Below, piece by piece: positions 1 to 50,979 of a DNA stretch of 50,979 nt. Position 1 is the stretch's first letter, and each line of letters opens with the position of its first letter. Source of the DNA: Bacteroidia bacterium (GTDB lineage: Bacteria; Bacteroidota; Bacteroidia; Bacteroidales; UBA932); contig JAUMVX010000014.1 of the NCBI GenBank assembly GCA_030529945.1, forward strand, positions 1 through 50,979. The letters are read 5' to 3'. The notes below the pieces were generated by a model. The model worked only from the letters and a program-made list of their open reading frames with translations. It was not told where the DNA came from and made no database searches. Both the position numbers and the translations under genes were made by a program.

Positions 1-45
1 ATGACGTAACGCAGGTCGGGCATGAAGGGTCAGCCGGTGCATCGA
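1..45 (-). repeat. Partial copy of dispersed intergenic repeat
   Basis: Read on the minus strand, positions 8-22 spell TGCCCGACCTGCGTT, identical to positions 44068-44082 in the repeat array near 44 kb. CATG, almost absent from the rest of the window, occurs here at 21-24 and in the array at 44089-44092. The element is cut by the window edge, so its full extent is unknown. Confidence 0.6.
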
Positions 46-57
46 GATGTGCAAAAT

Positions 58-88
58 TTTGCGGTATGCAGAATTTTCGTTAAATTTG
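58..88 (+). promoter_or_regulatory. gyrB promoter, Bacteroidota type
   Basis: TTTG at 58-61 and TAAATTTG at 81-88 are separated by 19 bases, matching the Bacteroidota sigma-factor consensus (TTTG, 19-21 bases, TAnnTTTG). Transcription would start near 95. The leader then holds a small bulged hairpin at 113-130 (GGAGT paired with ACTCC). Confidence 0.7.
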
Positions 89-169
89 TCCGATTTTGGA
101 GAATGATGCGGGGGAGTTCCTGCGGACTCCGTTAAAGGATTGATAGATAAAGAATTAAATATAGAGAGA

Positions 170-2179
170 ATGATAGACTCCGAAGAAATGAAAAAAGCGG
201 AAGAACAGTATTCCGCGAATAGCATCCAGGTGCTGGAAGGACTTGAGGCGGTGAGGAAAAGACCGTCGATGTACATAGGCGACATCGCGGAGAGGGGACT
301 CCACCATCTGGTCTATGAGGTAGTAGATAACAGTATAGACGAAGCGATGGGCGGATTCTGCGACGATATCCGCGTCACCATATTGGAGGACAACTCCATC
401 CGCGTGAAGGACAACGGCCGCGGCATCCCTACCGGGATGCATCCGAAGGAGCACCGCTCCGCCCTCGAGGTGGTATTGACCGTGCTTCACGCAGGAGGAA
501 AGTTCAGCAAGAGCAGCTACAAGGTCTCAGGAGGTCTGCACGGCGTGGGCGTGTCCTGCGTGAACGCCCTCTCCGACCGGCTGGTCGCCGAGGTACACCG
601 CGAAGGTCAGATATTCGTTCAGGAATACTCGAAGGGCAAGCCTCTCGGACCCGTAGAGGTGAAGGGGGAGTGCTCCGATACCGGAACCATCATCACCTTC
701 CATCCGGATGCGGAGATTTTCACCCAGACTACGGTCTATAAATACGACACCCTCGCAGCCCGTCTGCGCGAGCTTTCCTATCTGAACAAGGGCATCCGCA
801 TCACCCTTACCGATATGCGCGAGGAGGTCGATGAGTTCGTCCGCGACGAGAACGGCGAAAGCAAGCCTACCGGACGCAAGGTGAACCGCAGCGATGTCTT
901 CTTCTCCGAGAAAGGCCTCCGCGAATTCATCGAATACCTCGACGCCGGAGCGCAGCAGCTCATCCCCGAGCCTGTCTGCGTGAACTCCGACAAGGTCATT
1001 CCGATAGACATCGCCCTTCAGTATAACAACGGCTACACGGAGAAGATATACTCCTACGTGAACAATATAAACACCATCGAGGGCGGAACCCATCTCCAGG
1101 GTTTCAAGATGGGACTCTCGCGTTCGCTGAAAGCCTACGCCGACAAGAACAACCTTCTCGCCAAACTGAAGGACCCGCTCGCCCCCGAAGATTACCGCGA
1201 GGGACTCACGGCCGTGATTTCCGTGAAGGTGGCCGAGCCTCAGTTCGAGGGACAGACGAAGACCAAGCTCGGAAACACCGAGGTGACTTCCGCCGTCTCA
1301 CAGGCTACTGCGGCCGCCGTGTCCGCCTATCTGGAGGAACACCCTAAGGAGGCCAAGCTCATAATCGAGAAGATAGTCATCGCCGCCACAGCACGCAGCG
1401 CAGCCCGCAAGGCGCGCGAAATGGTTCAGCGCAAGACCGTGATGACCGGCGCCGGAATGCCGGGCAAACTTGCCGACTGCTCGGAGGACGACCCGGAGAA
1501 GTGCGAACTCTTCCTCGTCGAGGGAGACTCCGCGGGCGGAACCGCCAAGCAGGGCCGCGACCGCCGCACCCAGGCCATCCTGCCTCTGCGAGGCAAGATT
1601 CTGAACGTGGAGAAGGCTGTGGAAGGCCGCGCGTTCGAGAGCCAGGAAATCCAGAACATCTACACCGCCCTCGGAGTCAAGGTGGCCCAGGAGGACGAGA
1701 CGGGAGAAAAGCATATGGACCTGAGCCATCTGCGTTACCATAAGGTGGTCATAATGACCGATGCCGATGTCGACGGCTCGCATATCGCCTGCCTTATCCT
1801 GACCTTCTTCTTCAGGTATATGCTCGACCTCATAAAGAACGGCTACGTTTATCTCGCCACACCTCCGCTCTACCTCGTGAAGAAGGGCAAGGAGGAAATC
1901 TACTGCTGGACAGAGGAGCAGAGGGAGGAGGCCGCCCTGAAGCTCGGCAAAGGCTCCGACAAGGGCTACACCATCCAGAGATACAAGGGTCTGGGTGAAA
2001 TGAGCGAGGCCCAGCTCTGGGACACCACTATGAACCCGGAGAACAGGCGTCTACGCCAGATCACCCTCGAAAACGCGGCTCAGGCCGAGCGCACCTTCTC
2101 GATGCTTATGGGCGACGATGTCCCGCCACGCCGCCAGTTCATAGAGGAGAACGCCCATTACGCGAACATCGACGCTTAG
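170..2179 (+). CDS. gyrB: DNA gyrase subunit B
   Basis: ATP-dependent subunit of DNA gyrase, which introduces negative supercoils with GyrA in the cytoplasm. The protein shows the GHKL ATPase region ([34 protein letters not shown]), the transducer domain, and the Toprim region with EGDSAGG and the metal-binding acidic patch DADVDGSHI, then the C-terminal RYKGLGEM segment. [16 protein letters not shown] is typical of GyrB. Length near 670 residues fits the short GyrB form lacking the proteobacterial insertion. The frame is open from a TTG at 140, but the promoter at 58-88 and the family N-terminus favour ATG 170 or ATG 188. I chose 170 because a purine-rich AGAGAG stretch precedes it. It is the first gene in the window and appears monocistronic. 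Confidence 0.97.
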
Positions 2180-50904: not shown

Positions 50905-50923
50905 TTCAAACCTTTTTACGGCA

Positions 50924-50931
50924 CAAAAATA
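50924..50931 (-). promoter_or_regulatory. -7 box of the TonB receptor gene
   Basis: On the minus strand TATTTTTG matches TAnnTTTG, 19 bases before the start codon. No TTTG at -33; instead the repeats at 50941-50979 occupy that place, as at activator-dependent promoters. Confidence 0.6.
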
Positions 50932-50940
50932 TGATGCCGA

Positions 50941-50979
50941 TGTTACAGGGCTGTTATGGGGGCATTAAGAAAATGTTAA
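50941..50979 (-). promoter_or_regulatory. Pho-box-like array of four hexamers, 11-base period
   Basis: Minus strand hexamers TTAACA, TTAATG, ATAACA and GTAACA occur at 50974-50979, 50963-50968, 50952-50957 and 50941-50946, each separated by five bases. This matches the TTAACA-N5-TTAACA form of the Bacillus PhoP box and the 11-base repeat period of E. coli PhoB sites. The array ends 9 bases upstream of the -7 box, the usual spacing for such activators. It may continue past the window edge. Confidence 0.65.

Follow-up and report, generated by a model that had tools for sequence, protein, structure and literature searches.

The tetranucleotide CATG is almost absent from the genome of an uncultured Bacteroidales bacterium, and we consider it likely that this word was purged by selection during long residence of a Type II restriction-modification (R-M) system of the IceA/NlaIII family. 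The window, that is, the whole stretch of 50,979 bases that was analyzed, is contig C48 of this MAG (hereafter G000; 2.28 Mb, 93 contigs, 95.7% complete). It contains 3 CATG sites, in the number and at the places named by a preceding sequence-only reading (Table 1), compared with 176 ± 11.6 in 100 dinucleotide shuffles. The expectation of about 190 in that reading is likewise borne out, base composition giving 192 and the other models 176 to 206 (first-order Markov, 177; maximal-order, 206); its G+C content of about 58% needs correction to the measured 56.6%. In the 36 window open reading frames (ORFs; 47.6 kb), a single CATG is found vs. 193.2 ± 9.4 in 100 shuffles preserving both protein sequence and codon usage, with all three frames affected (observed/expected, hyphens marking codon boundaries: CAT-G, 0/25.3; xCA-TGx, 1/7.9; xxC-ATG, 0/160).

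The depletion is not confined to the window. In a genome sample of 29 pieces comprising 444,790 bases of the 2.28 Mb, window included, 93 CATG were counted vs. 1,669 expected under a first-order Markov model, the kind of count beyond the window that the earlier reading had proposed as a check. The 312 ORFs of this sample (388.6 kb) contain 58 sites compared with 1,337.6 in shuffles preserving protein and codon usage (CAT-G, 7/223; xCA-TGx, 5/66.7; xxC-ATG, 46/1,048). CATG is thus rarer than composition and codon usage would predict, and this holds throughout the genome as represented by the 445 kb sample. Across the whole genome, the longer word GCATGC occurs 12 times, or 5.3 per Mb, the median of 161 genomes of the genus being 210 per Mb. 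Judged by the marker protein EttA, the closest named relatives are MAGs of uncultured Bacteroidales, many of which come from ruminants, with 85 to 92% protein identity (80 loci kept, 4 of them labeled Cryptobacteroides or Coprenecus). The five nearest relatives have CATG ratios of 0.59 to 0.92, and four near relatives by EttA (L005-L008) carry 235 of 334 sites expected under the codon-preserving control. Among the 78 relative loci scored, those of at least 5 kb, CATG falls to 0.10 of expectation or below in 5 (L025, L051, L071, L080, and L081).

Table 1. Coordinates of the features discussed; positions without a contig or locus name are those of the window
Feature	Location	Strand	Remarks
Whole window, part of the genome-wide CATG depletion	1..50979	.	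3 CATG sites; R-M genes elsewhere, on contig C26
Residual CATG	21..24	.	Lies in the dispersed REP-like repeat (one copy), core GTCATGCCCGAC
EttA ABC-F gene	22686..24359	+	Marker for genome placement and tree
Residual CATG	44089..44092	.	Lies in another, nearly intact copy of this REP-like repeat, hairpin form CATGCCCGA-n-TCGGGCATC
Residual CATG	47427..47430	.	Within ORF 46652-48226 (-)
Partial IceA-type R-M cassette (predicted)	G000 contig C26:12859-14246	-	Outside the window; profile matches
D12 adenine methyltransferase gene (predicted), whole, 334 aa	G000:C26:12859-13863	-	PF02086, 1.1e-49; PADLOC Type II methyltransferase, 4.1e-130
BsuBI/PstI-type endonuclease gene (predicted), two separate ORFs	L154:9683-10846	+	Beside a C5 methyltransferase match

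The earlier reading had attributed the depletion to an NlaIII-like restriction system and called for a search for a CATG methyltransferase and endonuclease. Both are represented on contig C26, where a whole predicted D12 adenine methyltransferase gene adjoins a partial gene of the IceA endonuclease family. The latter is a 128 aa reading frame truncated where the contig stops (PF05315 ICEA, 6.9e-53), which scores 179.9 bits vs. a curated cut-off of 24, covers profile positions 113-218 of 218, retains the DHKDGRK stretch and six later cysteines, and overlaps the start of the D12 methyltransferase gene by 4 bases. In two relatives, G300 and G194, the operon is whole and encodes a methyltransferase of 262 to 265 aa (an N6_N4 match in G300), an IceA endonuclease of 226 aa (matching PF05315 over its full length with 379 bits in G300), and a D12 methyltransferase; in a third, G310, the small methyltransferase and IceA genes are whole and the D12 gene is cut by a contig end. 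The G194 locus includes, in addition, a 379 aa ORF between the IceA and D12 genes (L193:10609-11748, minus strand) with a weak, below-cut-off match to the EVE domain. The D12 protein of G000 is 81% identical to that of G300 and 70 to 71% identical to that of G194. Kin of the G300 D12 protein occur in one Agrobacterium phage and four Streptococcus phages (37 to 45% identity), where they are labeled "ulcer associated adenine specific DNA methyltransferase" or carry the start of that label. In plasmids, the G300 endonuclease had a single distant match (39% identity over 57%), and no solved structure similar by sequence to the IceA fragment or the D12 methyltransferase was found.

The adjacency of an IceA-family endonuclease gene and a D12 adenine methyltransferase gene is shared with NlaIII and with HpyI (iceA1-hpyIM) of Helicobacter pylori, unlike which G300, G310, and G194 have a third gene, for the small methyltransferase with the N6_N4 match, preceding the endonuclease. 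The H. pylori iceA1 product is reported to be 52% identical to NlaIII (PMC2749054), and M.HpyI of the iceA system is described as targeting CATG (PMC10423294). One paper, according to which only 10 of 49 H. pylori iceA1 strains had the full-length gene, calls NlaIII CTAG-specific in its text, although the title that it cites says CATG (PMC3261200). From family membership, CATG would be the cleavage site of the IceA enzyme, and adjacency to iceA predicts that the D12 protein of G000 is a HpyI-type CATG methyltransferase. The putative system would also resemble UpaP162 of Ureaplasma parvum, a CATG-cutting system with m6A protection, although UpaP162 is reported to be without homology to known enzymes (PMC6191088). 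An IceA-type enzyme would, on occasion, have cut those CATG sites that escaped methylation, and cells with fewer such sites would leave more offspring until few sites remained.

In a sample of 398 genomes of the family, taken from a larger set, IceA scored above the cut-off in four (G000, G300, G310, and G194), with a weak match in a fifth, G113; the CATG ratios of the carriers are 0.06, 0.05, 0.05, and 0.33, respectively. The three carriers from the genus (G000, G300, and G310) rank 3, 10, and 11 of 161 by GCATGC per Mb, with 12, 85, and 81 sites, ranks that would have a chance of 2.4e-4 (Mann-Whitney p 0.003) if independent; because G300 and G310 are close sisters, both statistics are overstated, and the IceA carriers represent only two or three independent cases. 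In a DNA tree of EttA made with a quick method (94 rows, of which 10 are low [<0.15], 72 not low, and 12 unscored, the CATG values of nine rows being set by hand, mostly from genome-sample counts), the sister row of the window, L010, has a ratio of 0.92 (support 83), and G300 and G310 form a separate clade. Thus, the genus carriers lie in separate clades, each strongly depleted, and IceA accompanies deep CATG loss in two lineages. The NlaIII-like reading is accordingly strengthened by the IceA fragment and methyltransferase gene, by the rarity of IceA, and by the depletion of the genus carriers, with the qualification that the endonuclease gene looks interrupted and that some equally depleted genomes lack a detected IceA.

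These genomes provide the main argument for the strongest rival explanation, namely, that another CATG-directed system, now lost or unbinned, did the purging, with the IceA cassette being incidental or a late arrival. CATG loss is missing from most of the relatives scored, yet at least seven genomes without detected IceA show it, with ratios, from 20 to 40 kb sampled in each, of 0.02 (G338, G186, and G122), 0.10 (G120), 0.07 (G121), and 0.00 (G123) and a count of 0/69 in G111. Furthermore, the low-CATG state requires at least 8 changes on the EttA tree, indicating that CATG loss recurs in the family; UpaP162 exemplifies a CATG system reported without homology to known enzymes (PMC6191088); and G194, which has a whole IceA system, is only mildly depleted, as are its near kin L031 and L032 (0.37), the EttA of L031 being identical to that of G194; the two are perhaps the same organism. 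Nevertheless, the absence of IceA, which for G338, G186, and G111 was read from the overall tally of the 398-genome search, is weak evidence given the incompleteness of MAGs and possible poor binning of R-M cassettes. Moreover, the three genus carriers are among the lowest 11 of 161 and belong to two lineages, and the search of three methyltransferase families (D12, N6_N4, and C5) in G000 brought up no other CATG candidate system. We regard the involvement of another system as unlikely.

The purging system of the depleted genomes lacking IceA was not found. Profile searches detected no D12, N6_N4, or C5 methyltransferase in G123. The D12 methyltransferases of G360 (taken as the same genome as G119 because the coordinates agree) and G388 appear DpnM-like by eye, and that of G378 lies beside a gene that appears McrB-like by eye; none of the three matched the D12 protein of G000 (blastp, E up to 1e-4), so that they do not explain CATG loss in those genomes. 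The GCATGC proxy can also mislead: G378 has 9 GCATGC in 2.7 Mb, yet 28 CATG of the 45 expected in 7.2 kb.

A second alternative, raised as a possibility in the earlier reading, is a CATG-specific mutational process, for which 5-methylcytosine deamination and T to C changes by very-short-patch repair would be examples. In its favor, the C5 methyltransferase load of G000 is unusual, with 11 matches (about 10 genes) vs. 0 to 2 in 19 other genomes searched, and TATG is the commonest replacement before Met. C to T deamination, however, would be silent only in xxC-ATG, and T to C repair would be silent in the first two frames and never before Met, so that neither explains the loss in all three frames, which is similar where such changes would alter the protein. 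Comparison of 5 window genes with 13 relatives, many of whose sites are common to several of them, showed that none of 129 CATG sites of the relatives is kept in the window. At 108 sites preceding Met, the window has TATG (55), GATG (19), AATG (13), or other letters (21), and 32 of the 87 changes of C alone are to G or A; at 18 His sites, it has CACG in 13, a change of T to C. The amino acids are unchanged at 81 of the 129 sites (69 before Met, 10 at His, and 2 in the third frame). CATG was lost through whichever change was cheap, as selection against the site predicts, and loss was not restricted to one type of substitution. Neither loss mainly where C to T is silent nor products limited to TATG and CATA, as deamination would leave, was seen in the frame counts and aligned genes. 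Together with the assignment of the candidate enzyme to an adenine methyltransferase family, the depletion in all frames with frame-specific replacement letters favors selection against CATG over any single mutational route, and we rejected both mutational processes as highly improbable. Composition, codon bias, and an assembly or library artifact were rejected with near certainty, for although CTAG is absent too, and throughout the family, which makes part of the word pattern general, codon-preserving shuffles of the window contain 193 CATG vs. 1, the five nearest relatives are at 0.59 to 0.92, the aligned genes show synonymous changes, and 0 of the 29 pieces, some ends of which are our own cuts, begin or end with CATG.

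The proposed purge by the IceA-type system probably belongs to the past. Homology of the G000 gene to whole IceA starts at codon 114, and codons 1-113 were not found anywhere in the assembly. The 45 bases separating the start of homology from the end of contig C26 include a 14-base stretch common to the ends of contigs C20, C30, C32, and C72, and it resembles the terminus of an insertion element present in several copies; we take it to be IS21-like, with no transposase tied to the stretch. With the gene running only from codon 114 beside an IS-like end, the endonuclease gene is probably broken, cutting probably stopped, and the depletion would persist as a relic. As a MAG is a consensus, the population may be mixed, with the interrupted gene as one of its states. 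The same terminal sequence (L156:8364-8663 and the ends of C20, C30, C32, and C72) abuts a truncated second DpnA-like methyltransferase gene on C30.

Newly arrived DNA, such as the REP-like repeat, integrated elements, and other R-M cassettes, would be expected to retain CATG. As the earlier reading observed, a dispersed repeat accounts for two of the three window sites, and 27 of the 93 residual sites of the genome sample are located in this repeat, which keeps CATG in 17 of 19 copies with no more than one mismatch outside that word. At up to three mismatches, the repeat has 35 matches in G000, 1 in 13 relative loci, and 0 in five G300/G310 pieces. Its hairpin form has thus expanded in G000 and is nearly missing from the scanned relative loci; copies occur in the window (at 21 and 44089), in L088, L094, L099, and L101-L104, and elsewhere. 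Ten hand-picked R-M or element regions (36.6 kb) contain 18 CATG, or 0.49 per kb vs. 0.18 elsewhere, and other clusters are associated with a primase-integrase element, a transposase, and two reverse-transcriptase genes. We infer that these clusters represent DNA that arrived after the purge or too late for it. In a fuller scenario, which we put forward only tentatively, the genome would be a fossil of restriction that carries its own clock: IceA purged about 94% of CATG in the lineage leading to the species, the endonuclease was then inactivated by an IS insertion, and DNA acquired later stands out by its CATG.

The phenomenon is best explained by restriction-site avoidance, which is known, as is its relic behavior, but which is unusually strong in this case. 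Palindromic sites of orthodox Type II systems are reported to be underrepresented in host genomes, more commonly for long-resident systems, and avoidance may outlive the system itself as a trace (Rusinov et al. 2015; PMC4687349). The underrepresentation in G000 is of the same kind, although the loss here is near total (0.02 to 0.06), the threshold applied in that study being 0.78 on Karlin's measure, which differs from the ratios used here (PMC4687349). In H. pylori, no methylated motif is denser than CATG (9036 per Mb), and motif density is reported to show no link with the endonuclease (PMC10423294). With the same type of system, H. pylori thus keeps the motif that G000 has lost, which speaks against the proposed mechanism. 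Among the matches listed in a search of the open-licence literature, there was no report of CATG purging in Bacteroidales. The case is of interest for the depth of the loss, for how it differs from H. pylori, and because the enzyme is likely to have died recently. Removal of about 94% of a four-base word, combined with a cognate gene pair, a second lineage, and avoidance of other sites, makes for an unusually clean natural experiment, from which one could estimate what self-restriction costs, how fast sites are lost, and how old acquired DNA is. If true, the fossil scenario, together with H. pylori, would provide a test of the factors that determine whether a host genome is purged by its restriction system.

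Other words are avoided as well. CTAG, whose absence the earlier reading had missed, occurs 0 times in the window vs. 158 (first-order) or 65 (maximal-order) expected. It stays at or below 0.36 of expectation in 78 of 78 relative loci, which identifies its depletion as a family trait; as CTAG is, moreover, a general outlier in bacteria, it was rejected as a second sign of the CATG-purging system (PMC4687349). GATC occurs 102 times in the window vs. 350 (first-order) or 235 (maximal-order). In G000, predicted endonuclease genes of the DpnII, HaeII, BanI, TdeIII, and HindVP types adjoin methyltransferases, the C5 methyltransferase and endonuclease genes being located on L149-L155, L090, L147, and L148. 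For the DpnII, HaeII, BanI, HindVP, and TdeIII types, we take the sites to be GATC, RGCGCY, GGYRCC, GRCGYC, and GGNCC, respectively. All five are scarcer in G000 than in 15 relative loci (GATC, 0.28 vs. 0.66; RGCGCY, 0.62 vs. 1.15; GGYRCC, 0.61 vs. 1.26; GRCGYC, 0.50 vs. 1.31; GGNCC, 0.67 vs. 0.86). In a ranking of 65 singly degenerate six-base palindromes by scarcity relative to the relatives, free of CATG, CTAG, and GATC and made after the ratios of these sites had been seen, GRCGYC is 2nd, GGYRCC 4th, and RGCGCY 5th; GGNCC is 4th of the 16 words of its form. The reversed control CGTACG is itself scarce in G000 (0.26) and was not used as a yardstick. CTGCAG ranks 23rd of 52 in scarcity, showing no clear avoidance despite the split PstI-type gene. 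Scarcity of the sites of its own enzymes suggests that word avoidance largely follows the enzymes of the genome, with CATG as the extreme case; the shortage, relative to kin, of sites for five further enzyme types distinguishes G000 from the cases of Rusinov et al. (PMC4687349).

Avoided words can also predict enzymes yet to be found. The G000 sample avoids GTATAC (0.09), GTCGAC (0.18), GTYRAC (0.43), and GRGCYC (0.47), from which, on our assumption about their specificities, AccI/HincII- and BanII-type systems would be predicted. Elsewhere in the family, other words have been lost, including AGCT in L054 (0.00), GATC in G367 (0.03), and TCGA in G194 and L031 (0.08 to 0.09).
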